The position numbers and the translations under genes are program-made. A stretch of 58,346 nucleotides of DNA from Chloroflexota bacterium (GTDB taxonomy: Bacteria; Chloroflexota; Limnocylindria; Limnocylindrales; CSP1-4), in the NCBI GenBank assembly GCA_003141245.1, contig PLLE01000039.1:146656-205001 (forward strand), written 5' to 3'. Below the pieces are notes generated by a model. That model did not search any database. It saw only the letters and a program-made list of their open reading frames with translations, and had not been told where the DNA came from. Of this stretch, positions 32,341 to 56,278 are shown piece by piece; the stretch's first letter is position 1; every line of letters starts with the position of its first letter.

Positions 32341-32843
32341 TGGTCTGAGTCTCCCTGAGTAGAATCGGTTCACAGCATAGCCAGGATCAGACGGCCGAGT
32401 TGCCCGCCGCCGGGCGACGCTTTACGGGTTGGCGTGGGATACGCGCTCCCTGTCCAAACGTCCTCTCAGATGGCCACGACCTCGCACCCGATCAGATCGA
32501 GCCTCAGATAGGCTCGGCGAGCAACGTTGCGGCGCCCATCGAGCCGATGCCGCCGTGGCGATACTCGTCGTTTGGTAGGCTTTGCGGGTGGAGGAACCCA
32601 GACTGTTGTCGGCCGTCGATCAGACCGTCTCGTTCGTCCTGGGTCCTCCTCGTGGACAACGTCTCCATGGATGACACCGTCGCCCGTGCCGGCGTCGACA
32701 ACGAGCAACGCCCGGGGGAAGTTGCGTTAACGACCGTAACCTACCGCCTTGTCCAATTCGACCTGATGACTAGCTGGGCTGGCGCTCGGGCTGGTGTGCG
32801 GGAACGAACGGGGCTCCGCGGGTACGTGAGAGAGGCGCTTCGC
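32341..32843. other. Divergent intergenic region
   Basis: About 500 bp between the YerB-like gene and the metallophosphoesterase gene. A plus-strand frame is open throughout, but its composition is not protein-like and it has no ribosome site. I see no clear repeat or RNA structure. Promoters for both flanking genes should lie here. Confidence 0.4.
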
Positions 32844-35516: not shown

Positions 35517-35842
35517 TCGAACGGAGAGGATGAGGATCGGCCTTGCTTCGATCCTCGCACGAGCGGACTCGCGCCATCAGGTCATAGCGCCGAGATCAAG
35601 TCGTTTGCGCGCTCTTGTGGGAGTAGGCTAGACGGGCACGTCCACGATGGGATGCGGGATCTTCGGACGTGCGATAGGCCGCCGGCGGGGAGCTCCACCA
35701 TAGATCGGGCGTCGTCACGCGGCGAATTGGCTCGTGCGGTCAATTCTGCTCGACCAGAAGATAGGTCGGGTCGACACGCGAGCACCGACAGACCGGGGAG
35801 TGCATGGCGCAGGTCTGCGGACATCTAGAGGAGCGCGGTTCG
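35517..35842. other. Intergenic region between two repeat-protein genes
   Basis: A 326-bp gap, AT-richer than its surroundings. TAGGCTAGAC near 35625 could contain a -10 box. The ribosome site AGAGGAG of the next gene is at 35827-35833. No gene or structured RNA is apparent. Confidence 0.4.
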
Positions 35843-38695
35843 GTGAAGTCACTCGTATCGGCTGCGATCCCTTCCCGCGCGGGTTCGCCCGCTTCGCACC
35901 AGTTGCTGGTGCGGCTCCTGGGGCTCGCTCCGGCGGCGCTCCTGCTCTCCGGGCTCTTTGCGGTCTGGGCCGTGCCGCTTGCTGTGTCTGTGGCGGCAGC
36001 CGCGCCGACGGACGTCGTCGTCGCCTGGGGCGACAACTACAATGGCCAGACCACTGTCCCGGCCGGCCTGTCAGGCGTCACCGCGATCTCCGCCGGCGGC
36101 TACCACAGCCTCGCTCTCAAGAGCAACGGCACGCTCGTCGCCTGGGGCTACAACGGCGACGGCCAGACCACCGTTCCGGCAGGCCTCTCGGGCGTCACCG
36201 CGATCTCCGCCGGCTACTACCACAGCCTCGCCCTGAAGGCGGACGGCACGGTTGTCGCCTGGGGCTACAACGGCTACGGCCAGACGTACATCCCGGCCGG
36301 CCTCTCGAGCGTCACCGCGATCGCTGCGGGCGAATACCACAGCCTCGCCCTGCGGTCGGACCACACGGTCGCCGCCTGGGGCTACAACGGCGACGGCCAG
36401 ACCAACGTCCCGGCCGGCCTCTCGGACGTGAAGGCAATCGCTGCCGGTGGCTTCCACAGCCTCGCCCTCAAGTCGGACGGCACGGTCGTCGCCTGGGGTG
36501 ATGACACCTGCGGCCAGACAAACGTCCCGGCCGGCCTGTCGGGCGTCACCGCGATCGCTGCCGGTGGCTTCCACAGCCTCGCCCTCAAGTCGGACGGCAC
36601 GGTCGTCGCCTGGGGTGATGACAACCGCGGCGAGACACGCATCCCGGCAGGCCTGCTCGGCGTCACCGCCATCGCGGCCGGGTCTCAATCCAGCCTCGCC
36701 CTGCGGTCGAACGGCACGCTCGTCGCCTGGGGTGATGACACCTACGGCCAGACAAACGTCCCGGCCGGCCTGTCGGGCGTCACCGCGATCACCGCCGGTG
36801 GCTTCCACGGCCTCGCCCTGGAACCTTCGGTTGCCGCCACGCTCACCGTCTCCGGCATCCCAAGCTCCTGCGTCGCGGGTGTCGCCCACAGCGTCACGGC
36901 CACCGCAAAGGACCCATCCGGCAACACCGCGACCGGATACCGGGGCACGATCCACTTCGCCAGCCCCGACCCGGCAGCAGTCCTGCCCGCGGACTACACC
37001 TTCACCGCCGCTGACGCCGGGACCCGCGTCTTCAGCGGAAGCGTCACCCTCAAGACCGCCGGCACGCAGTCTGTCTCCGCGACCGACACGGTGGCGAGCA
37101 GCATCACCGGAGTCCAAGCCGGCATCGTGGTCACTCCGGCCGTGGCTTCGACCCTGGTCGTGTCCGGCATCCCGAACTCCTATGTCGCGGGTGTCGCCCA
37201 CAGCGTCACGGTCACCGCAAAGGACTCATCCGGCAACACCGCTACCGGATATCAGGGCACGGCGCACTTCACCAGCTCCGACCCGACAGCAGTCCTGCCC
37301 GCGGACTACACCTTCACCGTCGCTGACGCCGGGACCCACGTCTTCGGCGGGAGCGTCACCCTCAAGACCGCCGGCACGCAGTCTGTGTCCGCGACCGATA
37401 CGGTCACGGGCACCATCACCGGGGTCCAGGCCGGCATCGTGGTCACTCCGGCCACGGTGAAGACCCTGGTCGTGTCCGGCATCCCGAACCCGACCGCCGC
37501 CGGTGTCGCCGGCAACGTGACCGTCACCGCAACCGACGCATACGGCAACCGCGTCTCGAGCTACCTGGGCACGGTGCACTTCACAAGCACGGATGCCAAG
37601 GCCGGCCTGCCGGCGAACTACACCTTCACCGCCGCCGACAACGGCGTGCACACCTTCACTGTCATCCTCAAGACTGAAGGGACGCAGTCCGTGACTGCCA
37701 CCGACACGAAGACCGCGACGATCAAGGGCGCCCAGGCCGGCATCGTGGTCAATCCGGCCGCGGCTGTGACCCTGGTCGTCTCAGGGCTGACGACGCCACG
37801 GACCGCCGGTTCGTGGGGCAGCATCCGGGTGACGGCAACCGATGCCTACGGCAACCGCATCCATGGCTATCTGGGCACGGTGCAGTTCACGAGCTCCGAC
37901 CCGCAGGCCAAGCTGCCCGCGGACTACACCTTCACCGTCGCCGACGCCGGCACCCACGTCTTCAGCGGGAACGTCATTCCCAAGACCGCCGGCACGCAGT
38001 CCGTGACCGCGACCGACACGGTCACAAGCACCGTCACCGGCGCCCAGGCCGGCATCGTCGTGAATGCCGCGGCCCTCTCCAAGCTCGTCGTCTCAGGGCT
38101 CAGCTCGCCACGGACAGCCGGGACGACTGGCAGTATCCGGGTGACGGCAACCGACGCCTATGGCAACCGCATCCATACCTATCTGGGCACGGTCCACTTC
38201 ACGAGCTCAGACCCGCAGGCCAAGCTGCCTGCGAACTACACCTTCACCGCCGCTGACGCCGGGACCCACGTCTTCAGTGGGAACGTCATCCTCAAGACCG
38301 CCGGCACGAAGTCCGTGACCGCGACCGACACAGTCACAAGCACCATCAAGGGCGCCCATGCCGGCATCGTCGTGAATGCCGCGGCTCTCTCCAAGCTCGT
38401 CGTCTCAGGGCTGACGACGCCACGGACCGCCGGTTCGTGGGGCAACATCCGAGTCACCGCAACCGACGCCTACGGCAACCGCATCCATGGCTATCGAGGC
38501 ACGGTGCATTTCACCAGCTCAGACGCCAGGGCCAAGCTGCCTGCCAACTACAAGTTCACCGCAGCTGACGCGGGTACCCACGTGTTCTCCGGGGCCGTGA
38601 TCCTCAAGACCGCCGGCACGCAGTCTGTGTCCGCTACTGACACGCTGACCAAGACTATCAAGGGCAGCCAGACCAGCATCGTCGTCAAGAGCTGA
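35843..38695 (+). CDS. Exported RCC1-like propeller protein with six Ig-like repeats
   Basis: A 950-residue protein. GTG 35843 is chosen because AGAGGAG lies 9 bp upstream; ATG 35804 is an alternative. A hydrophobic signal (LLGLAPAALLLSGLFAVWAV) ends near VAAAAPTD. Seven 39-residue RCC1-like units follow (VVAWGDNYNGQTTVPAGLSG, then VTAISAGGYHSLALKSNGT), enough for a seven-bladed propeller. Six Ig-like repeats of the same type as in the neighbouring metallophosphoesterase make up the C-terminal two thirds. It has no catalytic motif; an adhesin or matrix role is plausible but inferred. No cell-wall anchor is visible. Confidence 0.85.
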   Translation: MKSLVSAAIPSRAGSPASHQLLVRLLGLAPAALLLSGLFAVWAVPLAVSVAAAAPTDVVVAWGDNYNGQTTVPAGLSGVTAISAGGYHSLALKSNGTLVAWGYNGDGQTTVPAGLSGVTAISAGYYHSLALKADGTVVAWGYNGYGQTYIPAGLSSVTAIAAGEYHSLALRSDHTVAAWGYNGDGQTNVPAGLSDVKAIAAGGFHSLALKSDGTVVAWGDDTCGQTNVPAGLSGVTAIAAGGFHSLALKSDGTVVAWGDDNRGETRIPAGLLGVTAIAAGSQSSLALRSNGTLVAWGDDTYGQTNVPAGLSGVTAITAGGFHGLALEPSVAATLTVSGIPSSCVAGVAHSVTATAKDPSGNTATGYRGTIHFASPDPAAVLPADYTFTAADAGTRVFSGSVTLKTAGTQSVSATDTVASSITGVQAGIVVTPAVASTLVVSGIPNSYVAGVAHSVTVTAKDSSGNTATGYQGTAHFTSSDPTAVLPADYTFTVADAGTHVFGGSVTLKTAGTQSVSATDTVTGTITGVQAGIVVTPATVKTLVVSGIPNPTAAGVAGNVTVTATDAYGNRVSSYLGTVHFTSTDAKAGLPANYTFTAADNGVHTFTVILKTEGTQSVTATDTKTATIKGAQAGIVVNPAAAVTLVVSGLTTPRTAGSWGSIRVTATDAYGNRIHGYLGTVQFTSSDPQAKLPADYTFTVADAGTHVFSGNVIPKTAGTQSVTATDTVTSTVTGAQAGIVVNAAALSKLVVSGLSSPRTAGTTGSIRVTATDAYGNRIHTYLGTVHFTSSDPQAKLPANYTFTAADAGTHVFSGNVILKTAGTKSVTATDTVTSTIKGAHAGIVVNAAALSKLVVSGLTTPRTAGSWGNIRVTATDAYGNRIHGYRGTVHFTSSDARAKLPANYKFTAADAGTHVFSGAVILKTAGTQSVSATDTLTKTIKGSQTSIVVKS
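36020..36838. repeat. Seven 117-bp direct repeats (RCC1-like units)
   Basis: The codons for AWG recur every 117 bp from about 36020. Two adjacent units around 36430-36660 are almost identical. Confidence 0.9.
36839..38695. repeat. Six 306-312-bp direct repeats (Ig-like units)
   Basis: Equivalent codons fall at 36839, 37151, 37463, 37769, 38081 and 38393, with periods of 312, 312, 306, 312 and 312 bp. Units 4-6 are closest in sequence to units of the metallophosphoesterase gene, suggesting exchange between genes. Confidence 0.9.
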
Positions 38696-40271: not shown

Positions 40272-42341
40272 ATGAAGAGGCACGACGAGATCGTCACGAA
40301 GCGCGATGACAGCGGCAATCAGCTGCCGGAGGGGGGCCGCCCAAGCGGCGGCGTTGCTGGGAGCGCGAGCGACTCGGGGATGAGGGCTACGGCGATCCGT
40401 GGCGTAGCCACGCGATTTCGCGGTCTCCGGCCGAGTGTGGATCGTGCCCTGGCGGCGCGGATCGCCTCCTGGTTGCCTTTCCTGGCGATCCTGCTGATCG
40501 CGGCCGCCATCCGCTGGCGCCACATCGGCGATAGCAGCCTCTGGCTGGATGAGCTTGCGCAGGTCCACGTCGCGCGCTCGCCGCTCGATGAGCTGCTGGC
40601 CGGCGTTCGTTCGCATACCGCCGCCGCCCCCCTCGATTACCTCGGCACCGGGCTCATGATGGATACCGCAGGCGCCATCGTCGGCATCGGCAGCCTCAGC
40701 GCTCGTTTGTGGCCATGGCTCTGCGGCGTGGCGACCGTGTTTGCGATCGAGCGCGCCACGCTGGAACTGACCGGGTCGCGTCGGGCCGCGCTGACGGCCG
40801 CCGCGCTGACGGCCTTCTCGGGCTTCCTCGCCTTCTACTCCCAGGAGGCCCGGTTCTATTCCATGTCCGCCCTCATGACAGTCGTGGTCGTGTGGACCTT
40901 CGCCCGGGCGATCCGGCTGCGACGGCGTCGTGACTGGGCCGCCTTCGGCTGCGCGGCGATCGCCGGCGTCTACACCCACTACTTCATAGCGCTGCTTCTG
41001 GCGCTCGAGGGAGCGGGTCTCCTGGCCGTGGAAGGAGTTCGAGCCGCCCGGCGGCGATCGGTCGGCCCCGCCGTCGTCGAGATGGGGCGACGTCTCCTCC
41101 CGTTGGCTCTCGTCGGCGTTGTCACGGTGGTGGCGTTTCTGCCCTGGTACCTGTATGCGACTCGCACTCAGCTGTCGGTTGTGAACGCCTACCCGCCCAT
41201 TGCCGCCCTGAGCCCCGAACGTCTCGCCCGTCTACTCGAGACTCTCCTGGCTGCCGTCCCTCGGGCCGGCGTGCCCGGTGGAGATCCGTGGAGCGACTGG
41301 CTGCTTACCGCCGCGGTTGTGGCACTTGCCGTTCCTGGGGCGGCCCTCCTGATGCGCGCTCGTCCCGAAACGGCCATTGCGATGGTCTCCATGGCGATCG
41401 TCCTCATCCCCCTTGTCTGGGCGATGGACATCGGATCGCACTACTTCATCTCAGAGAGGCAGTTCATCTTCCTCTTGCCCGTGCTGTACATCCTGGCCGG
41501 GGCCGGTCTCGACGCCGCGCTCGTCGGGCTCGAACGCCTGGCCGGGTTCGCGCGCCCGCGCGCATCGCTGGTCGTCCGCAGGCTGGCCCCGGTGGGCCTC
41601 GCCATCGCTCTGGCGGCTATGAGCGTCCTTCCTCTCCACCGCGTTTACGCCGGCGATTTCAGGCCGCGCGAGAACTGGAAATCGGCCTCCGCCTTTACGG
41701 AGAAGATGCTTTGCCCGGGTGGCCACGTCTACAGCAACGTAGGGCCGAACTACTACTACGGCGTCACGCTCTATGCCCCGGAGCTGGAGCCGCGCGCGGT
41801 CTACATCACCCAGCACGGTCAGAACGAGTTCCTCTTGGATGCCCTCAAGCGGTACCCGATAGGCTCGAGCGACGTCATCGTCATCTTCACTCCGGCGCCC
41901 GGGGTCTGGGTACCGGGCCGCGGCACGATCGGCACCATCAGTGACGCTCTCAAACGGCAGGGCTTCCAGTTCCGCAGTATCAGTTCGGATCGCATCCGCA
42001 TCTTCTACAACCCGACAGGGTGTCAGGCGGCGCCGACAGAAACCCTGGTAGGGTCGGGCATGACGACACCACGGACGGCGGGTTCGACCGGCAGCATCCG
42101 GGTGACCGCGGCCGACGCAAACGGCAACCGCGTCCCGAGCTACCGAGGCACGATCCACTTCACGAGCTCCGACGCCGAGGCCAGGCTTCCTGCCGACTAC
42201 ACGTTCACCGCGGCCGACAACGGCACCCACGTCTTCGTCGGGACCGTGATCCTCAAGACTGCCGGCACGCAATGGGTCCGTGCGACCGACAAGGTCACGG
42301 CCACCATCACCGGCACGCAGACCGACATCGTCGTCAAGTGA
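40272..42341 (+). CDS. Membrane glycosyltransferase (PMT/ArnT-like) with a C-terminal Ig-like repeat
   Basis: A 689-residue protein. Residues ~55-480 form a polytopic GT-C-type domain with the acidic loop WRHIGDSSLWLDELAQVHVA and YSQEARFYSM, typical of the mannosyltransferase/PMT_2 superfamily using polyprenyl-phosphate sugars. A soluble extracellular part follows (MLCPGGHVYSNVGPNYYYG). From about residue 590 a complete Ig-like repeat (TPRTAGSTGSIRVTAADANG to TGTQTDIVVK) is fused, the same module found in the exported proteins upstream. The start ATG sits just after a TATAAT box. The Ig module would lie outside the membrane. Confidence 0.8.
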   Translation: MKRHDEIVTKRDDSGNQLPEGGRPSGGVAGSASDSGMRATAIRGVATRFRGLRPSVDRALAARIASWLPFLAILLIAAAIRWRHIGDSSLWLDELAQVHVARSPLDELLAGVRSHTAAAPLDYLGTGLMMDTAGAIVGIGSLSARLWPWLCGVATVFAIERATLELTGSRRAALTAAALTAFSGFLAFYSQEARFYSMSALMTVVVVWTFARAIRLRRRRDWAAFGCAAIAGVYTHYFIALLLALEGAGLLAVEGVRAARRRSVGPAVVEMGRRLLPLALVGVVTVVAFLPWYLYATRTQLSVVNAYPPIAALSPERLARLLETLLAAVPRAGVPGGDPWSDWLLTAAVVALAVPGAALLMRARPETAIAMVSMAIVLIPLVWAMDIGSHYFISERQFIFLLPVLYILAGAGLDAALVGLERLAGFARPRASLVVRRLAPVGLAIALAAMSVLPLHRVYAGDFRPRENWKSASAFTEKMLCPGGHVYSNVGPNYYYGVTLYAPELEPRAVYITQHGQNEFLLDALKRYPIGSSDVIVIFTPAPGVWVPGRGTIGTISDALKRQGFQFRSISSDRIRIFYNPTGCQAAPTETLVGSGMTTPRTAGSTGSIRVTAADANGNRVPSYRGTIHFTSSDAEARLPADYTFTAADNGTHVFVGTVILKTAGTQWVRATDKVTATITGTQTDIVVK

Positions 42342-42751: not shown

Positions 42752-43666
42752 ATGGCGCTCGCCTCCGGGCCGGTTGGGGTCGAGCCGGGTCGGGCAAGCG
42801 TCGCCCGAATACGGACCGTCACCAAGCGCCCCGAGCACGAGTTCGTGCTGGCTCGCTACTACGGCAGCATCATCTCGCCCTACCTGACGTGGGCCTGCCT
42901 GCGCCTCGGGCTCAGCGCCGATCAGGTGACGATAGTCGGCGGCGTCATCGGCGCGGCCGGTGCCGCCCTCCTGTTTCCGGCGCTAGGTCCCTGGACGGCG
43001 GTTGGTGTGATCGCCCTCCAGGTCGCCTACATCCTCGATTTCTCGGACGGCCAGGTCGCCCGGATGCGAGGCACTTCATCGATGGCCGGCGGCTACCTCG
43101 ACTGGCTGACGCATCTGTACGTGCCACCCGCGGCGGCCCTCGCAACCTCGGCCAGCGTCGCCATCGCGGTCGGGCAGCCGTGGCCGTTCGTTCTCGGAAT
43201 AGCCGCGGCGCTCGAGCTCGCGCCGATGGCCTTCCAGGCCAAGGAGCACATCCTCGTGGCGATGGCCCGCACCGATCCGGCTTTGGGTAGATCGGCCTTC
43301 TTCTTCGCTGCGCTGAACGACGACGCACGGTCCGGTGACGTCGAGCAGGCGCCCGACGGCGCCCCGACGCCACTCCGCGCGGCCGGCATTGCCGGTAGGG
43401 CCCGTCGCCCGTCCGTGCGCTCCCTGGTCGGAGAGGTCCTCATCTATCCCGGTGCCGCGCATCTGCTGACGCTCGCCGTCTTCGCCGACCTCGCGTCGTC
43501 GGTACTGGGCGGGCCCGCCGTTGGCGCGAGGGTCATCGTGCTGGCCGCCTGGACTGCCGCGCTGCTGGTCCACCTGCCGCTCGTCGTCCGCCGCAACTAC
43601 CGCGTCATCCGGGCAGTCGAGGGCCGCTCTGGAGGCCACGCGCCATCGCAGAACTCGGACCAATAG
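42752..43666 (+). CDS. CDP-alcohol phosphotransferase family membrane protein (first copy)
   Basis: A 304-residue polytopic protein. The family motif is visible as D96-FS-D99-G-QV-AR, then G and D117 in GGYLDWLTH. The position of the fourth Asp, the proposed catalytic base, is His121. The family transfers a phospho-alcohol from a CDP-alcohol to an acceptor alcohol. Soluble loop residues ~185-225 separate the last helices. It stands first in a run with a nucleotidyltransferase, a G1P-dehydrogenase-like enzyme and a second family member, so a non-housekeeping product such as a phosphoglycerol-modified lipid or glycan is likely. Donor and acceptor are unknown. Confidence 0.8.
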   Translation: MALASGPVGVEPGRASVARIRTVTKRPEHEFVLARYYGSIISPYLTWACLRLGLSADQVTIVGGVIGAAGAALLFPALGPWTAVGVIALQVAYILDFSDGQVARMRGTSSMAGGYLDWLTHLYVPPAAALATSASVAIAVGQPWPFVLGIAAALELAPMAFQAKEHILVAMARTDPALGRSAFFFAALNDDARSGDVEQAPDGAPTPLRAAGIAGRARRPSVRSLVGEVLIYPGAAHLLTLAVFADLASSVLGGPAVGARVIVLAAWTAALLVHLPLVVRRNYRVIRAVEGRSGGHAPSQNSDQ

Positions 43667-43875
43667 ACGAGGAGAGGGCAGGGCCCGACGGCACGAGGTC
43701 CACTCGCCAGGAAGGTCGCGACCGTGCTGCCGCGTCCTTCCCCCCGGAACGGTCAGGCGCTCTCATTCTCTCCGGATAGGCAGAGGGAAGTCTGGGTCGG
43801 ATACCATGGGCGCCTCAGGCTTCCGCGCATTGTCGCGCCTGTCATCGGTGCGGTGCCGGGGCCGCCCGTGCAGAG

Positions 43876-44643
43876 GTGCCCACTATCCGATCCAAACCCA
43901 TGCCGCCGATTGGTCTGGTCCTGGCTGCGGGGCTCGGCCGACGGCTCGGCGACCGCACAGCCGACCGTCCTAAGGCCCTGATCGAGCTGCAGGGGAAGAC
44001 CCTGCTCGAGCGGCTCCTTGTCTCGCTCGCCGCGGCGAAGGTGGAACAGGCCGTCGTCGTGACCGGTCACTGCGCCGAGCGCGTCGAAGCCTTTGTCGCG
44101 AGCCGCGCCTTTGGCCTGTCGGTGCGAACCCTCTTCAACCCCGACTACGCGACGGCGAACAACATCGTCTCCTTCCTCAGCGCCGCAGAGATGATCGAGG
44201 ACGGCTGTTTGCTGTTGAACTCGGACATCGTCGTCGATCCGTCGGTCATAGAAGAACTGGCTGCGGATCGGGACGGCAGCTGGCTGGTCGTCGACCACGA
44301 CGAGCCGCTCGGCGCTGAAGAGATGAAGGTCCAGCTCGACGAGGCTGGCTGGATAACGCGCGTGAACAAGGAGCTTCAGCCGGAGGATTGCGTCGGCGAG
44401 TACATCGGTGCGCTGCGCTTTGACGCGTCGGGAGTCAGAGAGTGTCTGGCATCGGCCCGCCGGCTCGTCGCCTCGGGTGGGACGAACCTGTACTACGAGC
44501 ACGCCATCGACGCCGCAGCTGCGGAGATCGGAGCCCTGCCCTTGCCCACAACTGGCCGGGCGTGGACGGAGATCGACGACGAAGTCGACTATGCCCGAGC
44601 CCTGGCGATCCTGGCCGGCGTCGAAGGGCACGGGGCTAGATGA
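43876..44643 (+). CDS. LicC-like nucleotidyltransferase (alcohol-phosphate cytidylyltransferase candidate)
   Basis: A 255-residue nucleotidyltransferase. LVLAAGLGRRLGDRTADRPKAL is the nucleotide-binding signature, and NNIVSFL, LLLNSDIVVD, EYIGALRF and TNLYYEHAID match the LicC/phosphocholine- or inositol-phosphate-cytidylyltransferase pattern rather than sugar-1-phosphate enzymes such as RmlA. It probably makes a CDP-alcohol from CTP and an alcohol phosphate supplied by the next gene. GTG 43876 is given; ATG 43900 is an alternative. It overlaps the next gene by ATGA. Confidence 0.8.
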   Translation: MPTIRSKPMPPIGLVLAAGLGRRLGDRTADRPKALIELQGKTLLERLLVSLAAAKVEQAVVVTGHCAERVEAFVASRAFGLSVRTLFNPDYATANNIVSFLSAAEMIEDGCLLLNSDIVVDPSVIEELAADRDGSWLVVDHDEPLGAEEMKVQLDEAGWITRVNKELQPEDCVGEYIGALRFDASGVRECLASARRLVASGGTNLYYEHAIDAAAAEIGALPLPTTGRAWTEIDDEVDYARALAILAGVEGHGAR

Positions 44644-45719
44644 TCGGCGAAACGATCGGCCACCGGTCGGTGCGGATTCCCAGGCTCTTGCGGCTCGTAG
44701 AGTCGCGGTCCGCCGTGATCGACGAATTGGCCGCGTTGGGGCAGGGCTGTCGGTTCCTCGTGGTTCACAGCGGTCAGGCATCGCCGACGCGATACGGCGA
44801 GGCATTCATGACCGGCGCCCGAGCGGCTGGCATCGATGTGGAGGAGTGTCTCGTTCGCTCCAACACGGATGAGTGGGTCCGAGCTGTGCGCCGCGAGATC
44901 GCGCGGGTTGGCCCCGATTACGTGGTCGGGGTGGGCGGGGGACGCGTCGTGGACGTGGCCAAGGTCGCGGCCGCCCTCGACGCGATCGACTTCATCAGCG
45001 TCCCCACCCAGGCATCGAGCGACGGCATCTGCTCCCCGGTCGCCGTGATGCAAGAAGCCGACGGGCGACCGACGTCGCTCGGGGCACGGATCCCGGTCGC
45101 AGTCGTCGTGGACATGGAGGTGCTATCGCGGGCGCCGCTCGTCACGTGGCGCGCCGGGCTCGGAGATCTCCTCTCCAATCTGTCGGCAGTCCAGGACTGG
45201 CGACTGGCCCACGCGCGGTACGGCGAGCCGATAGACGACTTCGCCTGTCTCACGGCAGAGGCCGCGGCGCTCTCCGCGTACCAGGAGGGCGCCGACCTCC
45301 AGGATCGCCAGTTCCGCGAGAAGCTCATGCGGGGCCTGATCCTGAGCGGAATCTCGATGGAAATGGCCGGCTCGTCGCGGCCTGCGAGCGGATCGGAGCA
45401 TCTCATCAGCCATGCCCTGGATCGGCTCCTGCCACAGCCGCGTCACCACGGCCTGCAGGTCGCGCTCACGACGGTCACCGCGTTCATTCTGCGCGGCGAG
45501 GACGTGAGCGCTCTCATCCGTTACTTCCGGGGCCTTGGCCTGCCCGTTCTTCCCCGGGACCTCGGGATCGAGACGGACCTCTTCCTCAGGGCCGTGCGAA
45601 TGGGACCGGGGCTGCGGCCCGGCCGATCGACGGTGCTCGACCATGTTGGGGACCAGGAAGTCCGCATGCTGGCCGACGCGCTCGAGAAGATCGCCGGGAA
45701 TAGGTCGTTCGCGCCGTGA
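44640..45719 (+). CDS. sn-Glycerol-1-phosphate dehydrogenase-like enzyme (AraM/EgsA family)
   Basis: A 359-residue enzyme of the iron/zinc alcohol dehydrogenase fold. GVGGGRVVDVAK (97-108) binds the dinucleotide. VPTQASSDGICSP, GLGDLLSN, GSEHLISHAL and HHGLQVAL match the substrate- and metal-binding segments of glycerol-1-phosphate dehydrogenases. The family reduces dihydroxyacetone phosphate to sn-glycerol 1-phosphate. In bacteria it is uncommon; AraM of Bacillus is the known example. It overlaps both neighbours by 4 bp, placing it between a cytidylyltransferase and a CDP-alcohol phosphotransferase. A different polyol phosphate remains possible. Confidence 0.82.
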   Translation: MIGETIGHRSVRIPRLLRLVESRSAVIDELAALGQGCRFLVVHSGQASPTRYGEAFMTGARAAGIDVEECLVRSNTDEWVRAVRREIARVGPDYVVGVGGGRVVDVAKVAAALDAIDFISVPTQASSDGICSPVAVMQEADGRPTSLGARIPVAVVVDMEVLSRAPLVTWRAGLGDLLSNLSAVQDWRLAHARYGEPIDDFACLTAEAAALSAYQEGADLQDRQFREKLMRGLILSGISMEMAGSSRPASGSEHLISHALDRLLPQPRHHGLQVALTTVTAFILRGEDVSALIRYFRGLGLPVLPRDLGIETDLFLRAVRMGPGLRPGRSTVLDHVGDQEVRMLADALEKIAGNRSFAP

Positions 45720-46495
45720 ACATCACGCTAGCCGACGTTCGGCGCCGCCAGAAGGACCCCCACCTGGCCGCGGATCCGACTTACTCGACACTCGTCATGC
45801 GTCGGATCTCCCCGTTCCTGACCTGGTTCGTGGTCCGCTTCACGCCCCTGAGCGCCGACATGGTGACTCTGGCAGCCATCGCCTCAGGCGTCCTGGCCGC
45901 GGCTCTGTTGTTCGAGCCGCATCCGGCAGCGTATTTCGTGGCGGTCGTGCTCCTGCAATTCGCCTACCTCTGCGACACGTCCGATGGCGAAGTGGCGCGA
46001 ATCAGGGGCACGGCCGGCAAACGCGGCTCCTACCTGGACCTGCTGGGCCACCACATCCAGGATCGCTGCCTCTGGCTGGCGGCGAGCTGCCAGCTGGTGC
46101 TCCTCTCGGGCATGGCGCCCGCCATGGTCGCCCTGGTCCTCTTCTCGATCGCATTCACGAATCCGTTCGGCATCCAGGCCCGGTCCTACGTGCTGCACAC
46201 GATCGACCTGGAGGACCCGGTCCACGGAATGCACCGCGGCGTCGTCCGGCCCGAGCGCATCACGCCCGCATCGCTGGTCTACTACCTGTACCGCCGGATC
46301 GCCTTCCTGTGGAACTACCCCGCGGCGATGAACCTCTTCTGCATCGCGATCCTGGCAGACGCCGGTAGGTTCGCCGCCATCCCCGGCGCTCAGCCACTCG
46401 TTCTCCCGCTTCTCTTCCTGGCCTTCGGTCCGACGCGAGCGGCCAAGCAGTTCGGCAACGCGTTCCGTCTGCTCAGGCGGGCCAACTGGACGTGA
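45716..46495 (+). CDS. CDP-alcohol phosphotransferase family membrane protein (second copy)
   Basis: A 259-residue paralogue of the protein at 42752. Its motif is D87-TS-D90-G-EV-AR and D108 in GSYLDLLGHH, with His112 again where the fourth Asp is expected. The shared substitution suggests a subfamily trait rather than decay. About six hydrophobic segments are visible. GTG 45716 overlaps the dehydrogenase stop as GTGA. Two copies in one locus may act on two acceptors or form a heteromer, which is inference. Confidence 0.8.
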   Translation: MNITLADVRRRQKDPHLAADPTYSTLVMRRISPFLTWFVVRFTPLSADMVTLAAIASGVLAAALLFEPHPAAYFVAVVLLQFAYLCDTSDGEVARIRGTAGKRGSYLDLLGHHIQDRCLWLAASCQLVLLSGMAPAMVALVLFSIAFTNPFGIQARSYVLHTIDLEDPVHGMHRGVVRPERITPASLVYYLYRRIAFLWNYPAAMNLFCIAILADAGRFAAIPGAQPLVLPLLFLAFGPTRAAKQFGNAFRLLRRANWT

Positions 46496-47928
46496 TTGCC
46501 GGTTCCAGGTTGATGACTCCGATGAAGCGGAGCGTTGTCGCGCTCTATATCGGCCGGCTCGTGTCGGCCGGCTCCACTGTCCTGCTGCTCGCTGTGGTTG
46601 GCCGGCTGAAAGGCCCTGATGACCTGGGCGTCGTCGGTGTCGGAATGGCAACGGGTGCGCTGCTGTCCTCCCTGACCGAGCAGGGGGCATCCATGCTCGT
46701 CGTCCGCGCTCTGGCGCAGCGACCAGAACGCGCCCGCCAGATCGTAGGGGGCCTGACCCTCGTCCGGTCCGTCTCGGTACCTGTGGGTGTGGCCCTGACG
46801 TACGGCCTGATGACTCTCCTGTTCCCCGCCCACGCCCTCGCGATCTCCCTGGCGGCGGCCTGGCTGGCCGTCCAGCAGTCGACCGAGCTGACGCGCGCCG
46901 TTCTCGTCTGGGGAGGCCGGGCCGGCATGTCCGGTCTGCACACCTCAATCGAGAACCTGACCTGGGTGGGCGTCATGACCGCTCTGCTGCTTGCTCACGC
47001 GTCGCTCGAGGTCGCCTTCGTTGGCGGGCTGGCGGTTCTCCTGTGCTCGCTGCTGGTTGGATACGTTCTTGTCCGGATCCTGCTCGGCTGGTTCCCGACC
47101 CGACCGATGATGCAGGACGTTCGCCAGCTGCTCCGTGATACCCCGCCGTTCACCGCCTTCGTCGTCCTCGGACAGCTTTACACTCGTGTGGACACCCTCC
47201 TCATCGGCGTGTTCATGCCGGGCGGGCTAGCTGCCGCCGGGGGGTACTTCTCGGCCATGCGACTCATCGCGGGACTCGAGTACCTGCCCGACGCGCTGAC
47301 CCGGGCGATCTACCCATACCTGGCGCGTGCCTACGTCTCTGGCGCCGATACGGTACGCGGGATGATCCGCCACCCCATGGAGTTGCTGTTGTGGGTAAGC
47401 ATTCCGGTGCCGTTCGTTGCCTTCCTCGGTGCCGACTGGGGCTTTCCACTCCTGTTCGGCCCGGACGTCCTCGGCTACAGCTGGGTCCTGGTGGTTGTCG
47501 CCGTCTTCGTGCCGATGCGATTCCTCGGTTACTTGCTCGGCATCACCTTGACGACGGGCGGCGCGCAAGCCAGGCGGGCGCTCGCGGTAGCGCTGGCTGC
47601 GGTGATCGTCATCGGTCTCGACGTCGTGCTGCTGCCCCGCCTCGGGCTCGTGGCGGCCGTCATCGCGTTCATAGCGGCCTCGGCGACAACGTTCGGGATC
47701 TATTTCGTGCAAGTGTGGCGACACTTTGGCCTGCCGCCGGTCGCGAGGGCTGCTGCCGAATCGCTAGCCTGCGCGCTGCTGGCCTTCGTCGCCGGCCTGG
47801 CTCTCCGGTCGGTCGCCCCCGCTGTGGTTGCCGCGCCCGCCGCACTGGCGCTCTTCGGTGTCGTGTACGCGGCTATGTGGCTGGTCCGCCGGGCTGGACC
47901 CGGCAAGCCCAGGCCCGCGGAGGTCTGA
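46492..47928 (+). CDS. Wzx-like polysaccharide flippase (MOP superfamily)
   Basis: A 478-residue protein with about 13-14 hydrophobic helices. SVVALYIGRLVSAGSTVLLL at the N terminus and FVVLGQLYTRVDTLLIGVFM in the second half are typical of O-antigen/teichuronic-type flippases. It should move a lipid-linked glycan or glycolipid across the membrane. GTG 46492 overlaps the preceding stop as GTGA, so it is translated with the CDP-alcohol genes and probably exports their product. Confidence 0.88.
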   Translation: MIAGSRLMTPMKRSVVALYIGRLVSAGSTVLLLAVVGRLKGPDDLGVVGVGMATGALLSSLTEQGASMLVVRALAQRPERARQIVGGLTLVRSVSVPVGVALTYGLMTLLFPAHALAISLAAAWLAVQQSTELTRAVLVWGGRAGMSGLHTSIENLTWVGVMTALLLAHASLEVAFVGGLAVLLCSLLVGYVLVRILLGWFPTRPMMQDVRQLLRDTPPFTAFVVLGQLYTRVDTLLIGVFMPGGLAAAGGYFSAMRLIAGLEYLPDALTRAIYPYLARAYVSGADTVRGMIRHPMELLLWVSIPVPFVAFLGADWGFPLLFGPDVLGYSWVLVVVAVFVPMRFLGYLLGITLTTGGAQARRALAVALAAVIVIGLDVVLLPRLGLVAAVIAFIAASATTFGIYFVQVWRHFGLPPVARAAAESLACALLAFVAGLALRSVAPAVVAAPAALALFGVVYAAMWLVRRAGPGKPRPAEV

Positions 47929-48061: not shown

Positions 48062-49237
48062 TCAGGTTCGCCTCTGAAGCATTCGCCGGAACAGCTGCTC
48101 GTACTCGTCGGTGACGTGATCCCACGAGTACTGAGCCTGGGCTCGGGCCGCCGCCAGCTCGCCCAAGCGTGTCCGCTGGTCGGGTGAGGCGACGAGCTCT
48201 CGGATCGCCGCCGCCAGCGACGCGCTCGAATTGCGATCGTAATAGCAGCCGGCATCGTCGAGGACCTCTCGATGCTCAGGGACGTCGTTGGCGATGATGC
48301 AAGCGCCTCGGCCCATGGCCTCGACCAGGGCCGGGTGTGTGCCGCCAACCTCTGTGGCCTGGATGTAGAGGGCGCAGTTGGACTGCAGCTCGCCATATCC
48401 CGCGCCGAAGACGTAGCCGGGCATCAGGACTCCGGGGACCGCCGCAACCTTGTCATGAAGCGACCGCCTGTATGCGTTCGCGTAGGGCGCGTCGCCCACG
48501 AGCACGAGCGGCATTCCCAGGGCCGCCTCTCCGCCCGCCTTCTCATAGGCCTCGAGGACTACGTGGGCGTTGTTCTCCGGCTCGAGCCGGCTGACGTACA
48601 GCAGATAGCCGCCGGGTCGCAGACCGAGCGAAGCGAGGGTCTCCCCGGGCGGCACCGGGAACGGGTCGGAGCCATAGGGCACATAGACGGTCGGTTTGCC
48701 GTGCCGCTCGCGGTAGTAGCGGGCGATCACGAGAGCGTCGGAAACGAGGACTATCGGCAGTTTCGGCGAAAGCCAGGCGCAGAAGCGGTAGTACATGCGG
48801 CCCGCGAGCCCCCACTTGCGGCGCTCCCACTCGAGCCCATCCACGTTCAGCGCGACCTTCGCGCCGGTCAAGCGCGGAACCACGGCGAAGGGGGCATTCG
48901 CGTTGTTGCATATCAGGACGATGTCGAAGCGGCGGGGGAGTGCGTCCAGGACGGAGATCGCGGTGTGAACGACCGTGTCGAGGTACTTGTGGCGAATGGT
49001 GGGCAACACCCGAAGCCGCATCCCGCGATACTCTCGCAGGCCGTCGGGGACGACGTGAGAGCGGCCGTACACGGTTACCTGATGGCCCCGCGCCACCAGC
49101 CGACTGCCGAGCTGCTCCGCGAACGTCTCGAAACCGCCGTAGGCGGCCGGCACTCCCCGCGTGCCGGCGATCGCGATCTTCATCGGCGCTGCTGCCGCAG
49201 GGAGCTCCGGTCGGCTGGCGCTCACGAGCGGGGTCAT
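48062..49237 (-). CDS. GT4-type glycosyltransferase with a DUF1972 N-terminal domain
   Basis: A 391-residue cytoplasmic GT-B enzyme. MKIAIAGTRGVPAAYGGFET is the DUF1972 signature found in rhamnosyltransferase-like enzymes. LLYVSRLEPENNAHVVLEAY and IQATEVGGTHPALVEAMGRG are the GT4 donor-binding and E-x7-E regions. About 18 residues precede the domain, so an internal ATG is possible. It overlaps the GT2 gene by ATGA. It likely adds a hexose or deoxyhexose to the lipid-linked glycan. Confidence 0.88.
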   Translation of the reverse strand: MTPLVSASRPELPAAAAPMKIAIAGTRGVPAAYGGFETFAEQLGSRLVARGHQVTVYGRSHVVPDGLREYRGMRLRVLPTIRHKYLDTVVHTAISVLDALPRRFDIVLICNNANAPFAVVPRLTGAKVALNVDGLEWERRKWGLAGRMYYRFCAWLSPKLPIVLVSDALVIARYYRERHGKPTVYVPYGSDPFPVPPGETLASLGLRPGGYLLYVSRLEPENNAHVVLEAYEKAGGEAALGMPLVLVGDAPYANAYRRSLHDKVAAVPGVLMPGYVFGAGYGELQSNCALYIQATEVGGTHPALVEAMGRGACIIANDVPEHREVLDDAGCYYDRNSSASLAAAIRELVASPDQRTRLGELAAARAQAQYSWDHVTDEYEQLFRRMLQRRT

Positions 49238-50325
49238 GGGTGGACTCGTCCGAGGGCTCGGCCTTTGGCGCTGGCCGGCGCGTCTCCGAATTCAGGCTGC
49301 TCGTCAAGCGGCCGTTCGGCCACCGCGCCGAACCAGGCCATGATCTCCTCGTCGCTGGCTGCCCGTCGGCGCATGCTGTCGTTGCGGCGGGCCCACAGTC
49401 GCGGGATGTCACGCGCGACCGCGGCGAGGGCGCGCATCGACGACTGCTCGCGCAGGATCATCTCGCCGCCGTTGCCGGCATCTCCCCAGATGATCCATCG
49501 CCAGTCGCTCGGCCAGCCTGCCGTCAGCCCGTTTTTCAGAAGCAGGCGCCACTGGTTGGGGCTGGAGTACCGGTCGGCCGGGGGCTGCAGTATCTCGCAC
49601 CGGCCCGGCGCCAGGCTTCGGCGGTGGCGGGCGACCGCCGCGGGGGCGTACTCGCAACGCCAGCCCAGAAGCTGCGCCCGCCAGGCCAGATCCACGTCAT
49701 CCAGGTGACTGCCGAAGGATTCGTCGTAGATCTCGCCATGGTAGGCGACATTCTCGAGCATCTCGCGGCGGTACACCGCAGCTGCGCCGCTCGGCCCGAA
49801 TACGTAGTCGGCGTCGAGGTAGCTGCCCTCTGCGCGGTCTCCCGCCCCGCGCTCGGTGAAGAGCCGGTCGCGATGGGCCATGAGCCCGGTCGAGTCGAGC
49901 GTGTCATCGGGTAGCTCACGCTCCAGCAGTTCAGCGGAGTTCCCGAGCATGTCCTCCGGCCGAAAACGAATCAGCCGGCCGGCGACGGATCCGACCCAAG
50001 GATCGCGATCGAACGGCTCGAGGGCTCGGGCGAGGAAATCCCGATGGAGCCGGACGTCGGGGCTGAGGACGAGGTGGAAGTCCGCGGGGGCGAATGCCAT
50101 CGCCCTGTTGTGGCCGGCAGCGAAGCCAAGGTTGGTCTCAGAGCGCAGGAACCGAGCGCGGGGCAGGGCCGCCCGGGCGCGTGCCAGACCGTCGTCCGCG
50201 GAGGCGTCGTCGAGGATGCTCACCTCGTCGGCTGGCCGAGTCTGAGCGTCGAGCGCGGCCAAACACGCGGCGATGTCACTCGCCGAGTCGTGTAGGAGGA
50301 TCGAGACGGTAACGGTCAGGGCCAT
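49234..50325 (-). CDS. GT2-family glycosyltransferase
   Basis: A 363-residue GT-A enzyme. It starts VTVSILLHDSASDIAACLAA, followed by SILDDASADDG, ETNLGFAAGHNRAM and a DXD-like segment LVLSPDVRL. FGSHLDDVDLAWRAQLLGW carries the catalytic-base Asp. These features match rhamnosyltransferase/WbbL-like GT2 proteins. It forms a two-gene minus-strand unit with the GT4 gene. Confidence 0.88.
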   Translation of the reverse strand: MALTVTVSILLHDSASDIAACLAALDAQTRPADEVSILDDASADDGLARARAALPRARFLRSETNLGFAAGHNRAMAFAPADFHLVLSPDVRLHRDFLARALEPFDRDPWVGSVAGRLIRFRPEDMLGNSAELLERELPDDTLDSTGLMAHRDRLFTERGAGDRAEGSYLDADYVFGPSGAAAVYRREMLENVAYHGEIYDESFGSHLDDVDLAWRAQLLGWRCEYAPAAVARHRRSLAPGRCEILQPPADRYSSPNQWRLLLKNGLTAGWPSDWRWIIWGDAGNGGEMILREQSSMRALAAVARDIPRLWARRNDSMRRRAASDEEIMAWFGAVAERPLDEQPEFGDAPASAKGRALGRVHP

Positions 50326-50421
50326 CGGCCAGCCCGTTGGAGGCCACGGTCCGCCAGGCGGGAGCTTAGCATCGTCGTTTCCACGAGTGTGAATTGTGCC
50401 TGATAGGCCGCGGTGGCCACG

Positions 50422-50646
50422 TCAACCAGCGACCTCGTCGTGCAGGCCGGCGAACATGCCTAGCAGCGCCAGTGCCAGGCCCACAAGTATGGCGGCGCGG
50501 GAAGGACCGGGCAAGTCGTACACGGCGAAGCCAATGCCGTAGAACAGGATCAGTCCGGCCATGGCTGCCACGACGGGCTCATGCGTGCCAGCTTCCGATT
50601 GCGGCTCGCCTCCGCCATCCCCTGTGGGGATCCCGCGTGTTCTCAT
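50422..50646 (-). CDS. Possible small membrane protein with two helices
   Basis: A 74-residue frame from ATG 50646 (start possibly 50712). After a polar N terminus come two hydrophobic segments, VVAAMAGLILFYGIGFAVY and AAILVGLALALLGMFAGL, separated by a short DLPGPSR loop. This is the pattern of a real two-pass protein and unlike the arginine-rich shadow frames nearby. No good ribosome site is seen and no family is recognised. It fills part of the 554-bp gap between divergent glycosyltransferases. Confidence 0.45.
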   Translation of the reverse strand: MRTRGIPTGDGGGEPQSEAGTHEPVVAAMAGLILFYGIGFAVYDLPGPSRAAILVGLALALLGMFAGLHDEVAG

Positions 50647-50844
50647 CGCGGGAGGACGACGTGGGGGGACGGCAGGTGCGGAAGCAGGCCTCCCGGAATG
50701 CCTCTGGCACAAAGATCGGCCTTATCACGCCCGACGTGCCCCGCGCTGACTACTGCGATGATGCGCTTTCCCTTGTCCACGATATGACGATACCAGAGGC
50801 TGACCGCATGGTCAGGCCGTTCCAACCGAGCCAGCCGTGGCGAG

Positions 50845-50873
50845 TTCAAGGCGGGCCGCGAGGTCGCTACACT
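50845..50873 (+). promoter_or_regulatory. Possible promoter TTCAAG-17-TACACT before a glycosyltransferase
   Basis: TACACT (50868-50873) ends 6 bp before GTG 50880. A weak TTCAAG -35 box lies at the normal 17-bp spacing. There is no ribosome site near the GTG, so the mRNA may be leaderless. Confidence 0.45.
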
Positions 50874-50879
50874 GCGCTC

Positions 50880-52058
50880 GTGCGTGAACGAAGCATCCTG
50901 CTGCTCCATCCAACCGACGAGCCGTACGGTTCCGACCGGTCGCTCCTACGCGCGGCCGTCGGCCTCCATGAAAGAGGCTGGCGCGTCCGTATCCTCGTGA
51001 GCGACGACCAGCGACCGGGCTGGCTGACCGAGCAAGCCGCAGCCGCAGGGATCCCGGTAGGGCACGGCCCTCTGGCCCCGGCTCGAAGGCGGTATTTCGG
51101 GCTTCGTCAGTTGCCAGCTTACTGTCGTCGCCTGCTCAAGGCCCGCCGTTGGGTCAGGCAAGAGGTCGACTCGTTCGAACCCTCGGTCGTCATGGTCAAC
51201 ACGAGTTCCCTGCTCGTCGGGGGATTCATTGGTCGGCCGCACGGCATCCGGCTCGTCTGGTACGTCCACGAGATCGTTACCGAGCCGAAGCTCATGAGCT
51301 GGGTCTTTCGACTCATGCCATCTCTCACTGGCGACCTCGTCCTGGCGGTGTCGCACTCCGCGCGGCGTCATCTGACGCCGTTCCGCTTCCGCCGATCCAA
51401 GGTGGTGACGCTGTGGAACGCCATCGAGCCGAGGCCACAGGGGCCACCTGGCCGGCAGCAACCGCCCCTGGTCGCCTTCGTCGGCCGGTTGAATCGGTGG
51501 AAGGGCTACGAGGTGCTCGTCGAGGCTGCTGCATTGCTGGCTGACGAGTTGCCGGACGTGAGGTTCGCGATCGCAGGAGATCCGCCCGCCGGCGAGGAGT
51601 GGCGAACGGATGCGCTCAAGGCCGAGGTCGAGCGCTTAGGGCTGATTGATCGGTTCGAGCTTCTCGGGTTCGTGAAGGACGGGGCTGCGGTCTTCGAGCG
51701 GGCTACGATCGCGGTCGTGCCTTCCACCTGGCCGGAGCCGTTCGGCAGCGTCACCCTCGAGGCGATGTGGGCCGGGACGCCGGTCATCGCGTCCGCTCAC
51801 GGCGGCAGCCTGGAGATCGTCAAGGCGGGCAAGTCCGGTTTGCTCGTCCCTGCTGGCGACCCGTATGCCCTGGCAGGAGCGATCAGGCGGTTGATGCTGG
51901 ATCCGGCATTGCGCCGGAGGGTCGCTGAGGCGGGGCGGCGTCGGGCTTTGGAGGAGTTCTCTCCCGAGCGGCTGCAGGAGAAGCTGGATGAGGCGCTGAC
52001 CAGGCTCTTGCAGGACGGTCCCCGTACCGCATCGGACGCAGCCCGGCCCGCGCAGTGA
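50880..52058 (+). CDS. GT4-family glycosyltransferase
   Basis: A 392-residue GT-B enzyme. The N-terminal HPTDEPYGSDRSLLRAAVGL holds the acceptor-side Gly loop. LVAFVGRLNRWKGYEVLVEA and STWPEPFGSVTLEAMWAGTP carry the nucleotide-sugar site with E-x7-E. GTG 50880 is chosen because the domain begins immediately (RERSILLLHP) and a -10 box lies just upstream; the longer upstream reading is not protein-like. Its stop is four bases before the overlapping next gene's main body, indicating an operon. Confidence 0.9.
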   Translation: MRERSILLLHPTDEPYGSDRSLLRAAVGLHERGWRVRILVSDDQRPGWLTEQAAAAGIPVGHGPLAPARRRYFGLRQLPAYCRRLLKARRWVRQEVDSFEPSVVMVNTSSLLVGGFIGRPHGIRLVWYVHEIVTEPKLMSWVFRLMPSLTGDLVLAVSHSARRHLTPFRFRRSKVVTLWNAIEPRPQGPPGRQQPPLVAFVGRLNRWKGYEVLVEAAALLADELPDVRFAIAGDPPAGEEWRTDALKAEVERLGLIDRFELLGFVKDGAAVFERATIAVVPSTWPEPFGSVTLEAMWAGTPVIASAHGGSLEIVKAGKSGLLVPAGDPYALAGAIRRLMLDPALRRRVAEAGRRRALEEFSPERLQEKLDEALTRLLQDGPRTASDAARPAQ

Positions 52059-53065
52059 CTCGCCGGATCACCGTCATCACCGTCACTTTTCAGTCGGCTG
52101 CCGAGATAGGCGACTCCCTGGCCTCCGCTCGCGTCGCCGCCGAACGGGCGGGGATCGACCTGGAGTTCGTCGTCATCGACAATGCCTCGACCGATGGCTC
52201 AGCCGAGGTTGCGGCGTCGGCCGCCGGCGGTGCCGTCGTCATTCGAAACGCGGAGAACGTCGGCTTCGGCGCGGCGAACAACCAGGCCTTCGAGGTCGCG
52301 ACCGGGGATGCCTGGCTGCTGCTCAATCCCGACGCTCGTCTGGAGCCGGACGCGCTCCAGCTGTTGTTGCGGTATTACGACGACCACTCGCGGGCGGCAG
52401 GTGTCGCTCCGGCGATCGCCGGCGGCGGGGCGCGTGGCGGGTCCTTCGAGCCCGGAGGAGCCGAGAGCGCCGGAATGTTGCCCGGCACCGCCTCCGCCAT
52501 TGGGCACTTCCTGTTCCTGAACCGGCTCCTGCCGGATGATCGCGGAGGGGCGTGGCGCGGCTTCCAGCTAACCCGGCGTCCGAGGCTCGGCCCTCGCCGG
52601 GTCGAGTGGGCGAGCGCTGCTGCGCTCCTGTTGAGGCCGGCCGCGATCCGCCAGGTGGGTGGCTTCGATCCAACCATCTTCATGTACGGCGAGGACGTGG
52701 AGCTCGGCGAGCGGCTCGCGCGGGCGGGCTGGCAGATGTGGCTTGTCCCCGGAGCCCACGCCTGGCACACCATCGCCTCGAGCCAGTCCGGCGTCTCGAC
52801 GCGCTGGATCGACAGCCTCCACGGCGCCATGGCACGCCGGTCGGGCAGGTTCCGGCTGACCGTCTTCGACTTCGTGCTCGGAGTCAGTCTGCTTACCAGG
52901 GCTGCTGCGACGCGCGGACGACGACCCGAGGCGTGTCTACATCGGCGCAGGATGAAGGCGTCCGGAGGCCGAGCCCTCCGATTGGCGCTGACGGCCGCGC
53001 ACCACGGCCCCTCCGCGGCCCCCGATCGAGCAGCGCCCGAAGTCCGGGAGCCGAACGTTCGATAG
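52055..53065 (+). CDS. GT2-family glycosyltransferase
   Basis: A 336-residue GT-A enzyme starting RRITVITVTFQSAAEIGDSL. FVVIDNASTDGSAEV, NVGFGAANNQAFE, LLLNPDARLEPDAL and FMYGEDVELGERLARAGWQ are classic rhamnosyltransferase/WbbL-like segments, including the DXD-type and catalytic Asp. GTG 52055 overlaps the stop of the GT4 gene by 4 bp. The C-terminal ~40 residues are polar and unstructured. Confidence 0.9.
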   Translation: MTRRITVITVTFQSAAEIGDSLASARVAAERAGIDLEFVVIDNASTDGSAEVAASAAGGAVVIRNAENVGFGAANNQAFEVATGDAWLLLNPDARLEPDALQLLLRYYDDHSRAAGVAPAIAGGGARGGSFEPGGAESAGMLPGTASAIGHFLFLNRLLPDDRGGAWRGFQLTRRPRLGPRRVEWASAAALLLRPAAIRQVGGFDPTIFMYGEDVELGERLARAGWQMWLVPGAHAWHTIASSQSGVSTRWIDSLHGAMARRSGRFRLTVFDFVLGVSLLTRAAATRGRRPEACLHRRRMKASGGRALRLALTAAHHGPSAAPDRAAPEVREPNVR

Positions 53066-56232: not shown

Positions 56233-56238
56233 TACAAT
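56233..56238 (+). promoter_or_regulatory. -10 hexamer TACAAT upstream of the ligase-like gene
   Basis: TACAAT overlaps the ATG at 56237, so that ATG cannot be in the mRNA if the box is used. Transcription would start near 56245 and give a ~35-base leader containing AAAGAGG. Confidence 0.5.
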
Positions 56239-56278
56239 GCACGTCGGTTCGCCTACCAGCCCGGCAAAGAGGACCCTC

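Follow-up and report, generated by a model that had tools for sequence, protein, structure and literature searches.

Described routes to activated phosphoglycerol

In the literature consulted, bacterial cytidine diphosphate (CDP)-glycerol has sn-3 stereochemistry, whereas phosphoglycerol of the sn-1 type is derived from phosphatidylglycerol (PMC7086022, PMC5974469). The AraM route to sn-glycerol 1-phosphate (G1P) is held to be an exception of the Bacillales and not general in bacteria (PMC8262930), and the authors of work on capsule polymerases took Gro1P as a non-natural substrate (PMC5974469, PMC8262930). In a literature search, neither CDP-sn-glycerol-1-phosphate as a natural donor nor a G1P cytidylyltransferase was found. 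The present analysis concerns a stretch of 58,346 nucleotides from a Chloroflexota bacterium of the CSP1-4 lineage (contig PLLE01000039.1), hereafter the window, which forms the end of contig 43 (contig end at position 58346) in a 2.54 Mb genome that is 92% complete. It carries a module of five genes for two CDP-alcohol phosphotransferases (AP1 and AP2), a nucleotidyltransferase (NT), a dehydrogenase (DH) and a flippase (FL). From the sequences, and with roughly even confidence, this module can be read as a system for surface phosphoglycerol tailoring with its own donor supply, running from dihydroxyacetone phosphate (DHAP) through G1P and CDP-glycerol(1-P) to a lipid-linked glycan and export.

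Several described systems share parts of this architecture. The araM/tagGH block of Streptomyces (PMC13118837) has the same NT-DH-AP2 order, a second AP upstream, a glycosyltransferase (GT) and an exporter; unlike the window, it has a TagGH-like ABC exporter in place of the flippase, and in its upstream AP the motif is canonical and accompanied by DUF5941 and an extra N-terminal domain. The Lic and Pnt pathways (LicC/LicD for phosphocholine, PntC for aminoethylphosphonate) likewise tailor the surface with a small phospho- or phosphono-alcohol that is activated by cytidine triphosphate (CTP) in a LicC-like manner, and LicD recurs in a congener of the window organism; the window differs in having a DH of the G1P dehydrogenase (G1PDH) family as substrate supplier, no PepM in the genome and AP2 instead of LicD. 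Wall teichoic acid synthesis by TagD, TagB and TagF resembles what is predicted for the window in its CDP-glycerol donor, lipid-linked glycan acceptor and export, whereas NT is of the LicC type, the genome has no TagF family protein and the glycerol phosphate would be of opposite configuration. The IPCT/DIPPS system (CDP-inositol, di-inositol phosphate) also pairs a nucleotidyltransferase with a CDP-alcohol phosphotransferase, but the window NT has no inositol-type residues, the fourth Asp of the APs is missing, and DH, flippase and GTs are present. Finally, the AraM/PcrB route to heptaprenylglyceryl phosphate places a G1P dehydrogenase in a bacterium; in the window organism there is no PcrB, and its DH falls in a group of archaeal and actinomycete cluster enzymes, not with the Priestia araM-type enzyme. 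The initial annotation knew of no characterised system with the composition of the module. The pathway is indeed uncharacterised, yet its gene set has counterparts and has been reported before, as in the Streptomyces block in which an ABC exporter replaces the flippase (PMC13118837). All parts are of known kinds, and the module would add a variant to nucleotide-activated surface tailoring and would not open a category of its own.

A conserved core in two phyla

The nearest named relative locus (L023) lies in a Chloroflexi metagenome-assembled genome from a fen, where NT-DH-AP2-FL-GT4-GT2 form a single run between unrelated genes and AP1 is absent. Identity between window and fen proteins is 91% for DH, 85% for NT, 74% for AP2 and 71% for FL. 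The genes of Streptomyces fungicidicus are ordered AP-DUF5941 protein, NT, DH, AP2, GT2, ABC permease and ABC ATPase, followed by hopanoid genes, and the NT-DH-AP2-GT2 core is also present in Streptomyces BHT-5-2 and Nonomuraea. Over their aligned parts, NT, DH and AP2 of Chloroflexota (window, L023) and Actinomycetota (L025, L026, L028) are 32-41% identical, so that the block either retained its order while its sequences diverged widely or was passed around as a unit. The actinomycete evidence comprises three plasmid records and one paper, a 2026 synteny study of 929 Streptomyces genomes that places a CDP-alcohol phosphatidyltransferase, a GT2, a sugar-phosphate nucleotidyltransferase, araM and tagGH in one region, with no function given (PMC13118837).

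A congener (G095) has a LicD-NT-DH run, and AP2 was not found in the 19 kb read there. Since NT-DH is kept with LicD in place of AP2, this pair appears as a stable unit with an exchangeable transferase. The conserved core is therefore NT-DH plus a transferase, AP2 in the window and actinomycetes and LicD in the congener. The five families had been put forward as one co-occurring set; the NT-DH-AP2 core is kept across two phyla, but AP1 and the flippase fall outside it, because AP1 is absent in L023, an ABC exporter replaces the flippase in Streptomyces and LicD replaces AP2 in the congener.

In the window, the five plus-strand open reading frames (ORFs) span 42752-47928 in the order AP1-NT-DH-AP2-FL, with 4-bp overlaps (ATGA or GTGA) at NT/DH, DH/AP2 and AP2/FL, a gap of 209 bp between AP1 and NT, and the coding GC profile GC3>GC1>GC2 in all five genes. 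The ORF coordinates agree with the single orientation and the overlaps of the last four genes described in the initial annotation, whose title had, however, named the genes in another order (DH, NT, two APs, flippase). Its family assignments are borne out by profile matches and by the L023 flippase orthologue. The run is not a product of chance, because the NT-DH-AP2 order recurs in Actinomycetota.

Two of the actinomycete loci show a further neighbourhood. In L025 (11492-20663, Streptomyces), the hopanoid genes hpnCDE and shc lie directly after the homologous cluster, and hpnC- and hpnD-like genes likewise follow it in L026; a functional link of the Streptomyces cluster to hopanoids is possible.

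Predicted formation of sn-glycerol 1-phosphate

DH matches PF13685 (Fe-ADH_2) with 101 bits against a cut-off of 28, and its nearest NCBIfam model is PRK00843, NAD(P)-dependent glycerol-1-phosphate dehydrogenase (residues 31-337, E 2.5e-73). A profile of six DH sequences compared with solved structures gave 3ce9 (deposited as "glycerol dehydrogenase") and archaeal G1PDHs as best matches; with this alignment profile, Methanocaldococcus jannaschii G1PDH (4rgq) reached E 4e-69, against about 1e-26 for other glycerol dehydrogenases. Alignment with solved G1PDH shows the motifs GGG...D (NAD-binding), (S/N)DG(I/F).SP and SSRPASGSEH..SH, the last being common to the M. jannaschii enzyme as SSRPASGSEHL.SH. 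D176, H254 and H270, which we take to be metal ligands from their positions in known GldA and G1PDH structures, are kept. In a phylogenetic tree, the DHs of the window, the fen genome and G095 stand beside the actinomycete cluster enzymes (support 87/85). The clade of module DHs includes M. jannaschii G1PDH (support 97/93) and is apart from the Priestia araM-type enzyme and from the AraM-like and GldA-like homologues that stand alone in the genomes of the phylum. Grouping with archaeal G1PDHs accords with the earlier suggestion that DH could make G1P, likely from DHAP.

The flanks fetched for lone DH homologues of the phylum hold no NT or AP neighbours, and DH alone is thus no marker of the module. 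No DH relatives were found in a scan of viral contigs and one in a scan of genome contigs. A lone G1PDH-like gene also lies on a megaplasmid of Nitratidesulfovibrio vulgaris (L024:9665-10714), flanked by type III secretion/SpoIIE genes on one side and a radical SAM gene on the other.

An archaeal-type ether lipid, for which DH would feed G1P to a PcrB-like prenyltransferase, recalls the known role of AraM in Bacillales (PMC8262930), but this reading is barely tenable: PcrB (PF01884) gave no match in the 92% complete genome, with positive controls in B. subtilis and archaea, so that the known bacterial use of G1P is unavailable there, and the reading was rejected. TagF (PF04464) likewise had no match in this genome, which, with PcrB, leaves both of the usual consumers missing. 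PEP mutase (PepM) is also absent from the genome, its sole PEP_mutase-family match being PanB, below the cut-off and beside CoaBC, and a phosphonate reading was rejected on this ground. Together, the lack of PcrB, TagF and PepM disfavours the ether-lipid, ordinary teichoic acid and phosphonate readings.

Predicted activation by a LicC/PntC-type cytidylyltransferase

NT falls in the Pfam family of MobA-like NTP transferases (PF12804). Its nearest solved relatives by sequence are PntC (6pd1, aminoethylphosphonate), LicC (1jyk, phosphocholine) and IPCT (4jd0, inositol-1-phosphate), and PntC and LicC lead a fold search with the AlphaFold model of NT (pLDDT 66, pTM 0.73). The alignment to LicC, used to look for its aromatic choline-binding box and its Asp at the ligand, covers LicC up to residue 124 and from 181 only. 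NT has G.GxRL..PK, NN..S and the catalytic Asp of the LicC/PntC/IPCT group, and NN..S aligns with Asn90/Thr93 of CpgD, through which that enzyme binds cytidine and selects CTP (PMC13228409). Sequence and predicted fold thus support a CTP-using enzyme of the LicC/PntC type, as had been proposed.

The substrate is approached through residues shared by all six DH-linked NTs, namely N115, EEMKV, GEYIG and a YE pair near residue 207. Chloroflexota also have NTs that are labelled inositol-type for their resemblance to IPCT and not for an established function; these carry Met at position 115, as in IPCT, and no GEYIG. The IPCT signature (in 2xme and inositol-type pairs, Met before (G/S)DH, an EATKV-like strand and no GEYIG) is missing from the window NT, which has N115-SD, EEMKV and GEYIG. 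Asn115 aligns with Glu104 of PntC, a residue directed towards the substrate amine (PMC6697681); with Asn in this place, a neutral polyol such as glycerol would be a better fit than an amine.

It is rather unlikely that the activated alcohol is something other than G1P, with DH reducing another keto-phosphate or serving elsewhere, and NT taking inositol-P, phosphocholine or another substrate. The NT family accepts varied substrates (known ones are phosphocholine, inositol-1-P, phosphoglutamine, aminoethylphosphonate and phosphoglycerate), and a related reductase-NT-AP cluster in two other genomes (G445, G307) has PepM and Ppd and presumably handles a phosphonate alcohol. These points are set against the exact G1PDH motif of DH and its co-occurrence with NT in two phyla, the lack of PepM in the window organism, and an NT that has no inositol-type signature and carries Asn for the amine-facing Glu of PntC.

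The related clusters (L126:3638-9252 in G445 C6; L127:3480-9127 in G307 C9) belong to small Chloroflexota genomes of 1.6-1.7 Mb. Their genes, named from a reading of the sequences, form one run of NT, AP (fourth Asp replaced by Ala), PepM (EDKVFPKRNS), Ppd and an iron-type alcohol dehydrogenase, probably a cluster for hydroxyethylphosphonate tailoring. Its logic is that of the window module, a reductase with LicC-like activation and a CDP-alcohol phosphotransferase, applied to a phosphonate.

NT relatives in Chloroflexota are mostly paired with a canonical AP and are inositol-type in appearance; plasmid-borne relatives (Diaphorobacter, Roseomonas, Sulfitobacter, Solidesulfovibrio) have a fatty acyl-AMP ligase, an aminotransferase with a CDP-AP, or a TagF-like protein as partners. 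An NT-AP pair is also the architecture of di-inositol-phosphate synthesis, and inositol-like pairs of this kind occur in the phylum. NT and AP could on this basis make a soluble compatible solute of the diglycerol phosphate or glycerophosphoinositol type, but this is very unlikely for an operon with a flippase and glycosyltransferases in or beside it, whose actinomycete counterparts adjoin GT2 and, in Streptomyces, TagGH-like export genes.

The proposed pathway, with transfer and export

In the surface tailoring pathway, DH would likely convert DHAP to G1P, and NT would join G1P and CTP into a CDP-glycerol with stereochemistry opposite to that of the TagD product. AP2, together with AP1 where present, would then move phosphoglycerol from CDP-glycerol to a polyprenol-linked oligosaccharide made by the neighbouring GTs, with release of CMP. 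FL is predicted to move the modified unit outward, and a Wzy-like protein may polymerise it after export. By analogy with TagB and TagF, one may speculate that the two APs of the window and of actinomycetes are priming and extending enzymes. What was observed, namely the gene families and their order, how far these are conserved, the motifs and the lack of alternatives in the organism's own genome, makes the pathway plausible; that its substrate is G1P and not another alcohol phosphate we infer.

The acceptor could instead be diacylglycerol or another lipid alcohol, to which AP2 would transfer sn-glycerol 1-phosphate from CDP-glycerol in a Kennedy-type route. Diacylglycerol would thereby become phosphatidylglycerol of the usual stereochemistry, whose free glycerolphosphate, the head group, is sn-1 (PMC7086022), and AP1 and AP2 do weakly match models of archaetidylinositol-phosphate and PI-phosphate synthases. 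Such a phospholipid product is nevertheless improbable, given that housekeeping lipid synthesis can be assigned to another CDP-alcohol phosphotransferase of the genome, whose motif is intact, that a Wzx-type flippase, GTs and a Wzy_C protein lie alongside, and that LicD, of a glycan phosphotransferase family, stands in for AP2 in G095, which points to a glycan acceptor.

Several findings speak against the tailoring pathway. The case for it is drawn from homology and gene context, and each of its reactions is predicted. Glycerol-1-phosphate was tried with CpgD, of the same family as NT, and gave no product (PMC12275187), which means that this family does not take G1P by default. DH, at 247 bits, is below the 413-bit cut-off of the PRK00843 G1PDH equivalog. 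The module is rare among the sampled Chloroflexota, where other DH relatives are lone, and, with little resolution in the deep branches of the trees of NT and AP, co-inheritance of NT, DH and AP does not emerge from phylogeny. AP1 and AP2, although above the PF01066 gathering cut-off, have the motif DxxDGxxAR-x8-GxxxDxxxH, with His for the fourth Asp of DxxDGxxAR-x8-GxxxDxxxD. The fourth Asp is regarded as the catalytic base of the CDP-alcohol phosphotransferase family, and catalysis by AP1 and AP2 may therefore differ from the family norm or be impaired. This position is His in AP2 of L023 as well, and Ala in AP2 of Streptomyces and Nonomuraea, whereas Asp is kept in the upstream AP of actinomycetes and in the housekeeping enzyme of the window organism. 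Other APs without this Asp are found in L089 (Gly, in a glycan cluster) and L126/L127 (Ala, in the phosphonate cluster). The AlphaFold model of AP2 (pLDDT 41) is too poor to place the His in three dimensions.

Surroundings of the module

FL itself gave no match in Pfam and NCBIfam at E 0.001; its L023 orthologue matches PF01943 (Polysacc_synt) with 41 bits against a cut-off of 28.2, and FL has 11 hydrophobic segments, where 10-14 membrane segments are expected of a flippase. Downstream, two divergent GTs are followed by a GT4, a GT2, a large protein resembling glycoside hydrolases and a Wzy_C protein (Table 1). On the upstream side are two membrane proteins, a PMT_2-like glycosyltransferase and one that matched no profile. 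These surroundings are a surface-polysaccharide region, in which the plus-strand GT4 and GT2 are the probable builders of the acceptor glycan. In favour of the tailoring pathway, a WecA/MraY-family enzyme and an LCP-family protein lie about 2.3 kb from each other on contig 42; the genome has one further member of each family, and no WbaP-type initiator was found in it.

Table 1. Genes of the module and of its downstream surroundings, with window coordinates
Feature	Position	Strand	Description
AP1	42752-43666	+	304 aa; integral-membrane CDP-alcohol phosphotransferase; PF01066, 29.6 bits (gathering cut-off 22); accessory, absent in L023
NT	43876-44643	+	255 aa; LicC/PntC-type cytidylyltransferase, predicted CTP:sn-glycerol-1-phosphate cytidylyltransferase; PF12804/PF00483
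DH	44640-45719	+	359 aa; sn-glycerol-1-phosphate dehydrogenase family, DHAP to G1P predicted; PF13685, PRK00843
AP2	45716-46495	+	259 aa; integral-membrane CDP-alcohol phosphotransferase, core transferase; PF01066, 36.6 bits (gathering cut-off 22)
FL	46492-47928	+	478 aa; polysaccharide flippase of the Wzx type, predicted to export the modified lipid-linked unit
Two GTs	48062-50325	-	GT4/DUF1972 type (48062-49237) and GT2 (49234-50325); divergent insert, missing from the corresponding place in L023
GT4 and GT2	50394-53065	+	true start of GT4 probably later than 50394; counterparts directly after the flippase in L023
Wzy_C protein	56237-57736	+	membrane protein, O-antigen ligase/polymerase-like; PF04932, 47.8 bits; candidate polymerase of the exported unit

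At window positions 40272-42341, 35804-38695 and 32400-35516, the PMT_2-like glycosyltransferase and an RCC1-repeat protein have near-identical Ig-like repeats (TAGTQSVSATDT...), which in the glycosyltransferase form a C-terminal fusion, and a nearby metallophosphatase protein matches the same weak Ig profiles.

Implications

It is conceivable, although still doubtful, that CDP-sn-glycerol-1-phosphate is a dedicated donor in the cytoplasm of bacteria from two or more phyla, streptomycetes among them, and that APs without the fourth Asp use it to build glycopolymers with the stereochemistry of lipoteichoic acid, for which neither TagF nor LtaS nor phosphatidylglycerol would be needed. With the stereospecific hydrolase GlpQ and cultivable Streptomyces, this idea can be tested directly. 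If it is true, a gene pair that makes and activates G1P would add a new nucleotide donor, bacterial G1P dehydrogenases would gain a role outside ether lipids, and a widely conserved block of Streptomyces would be explained.

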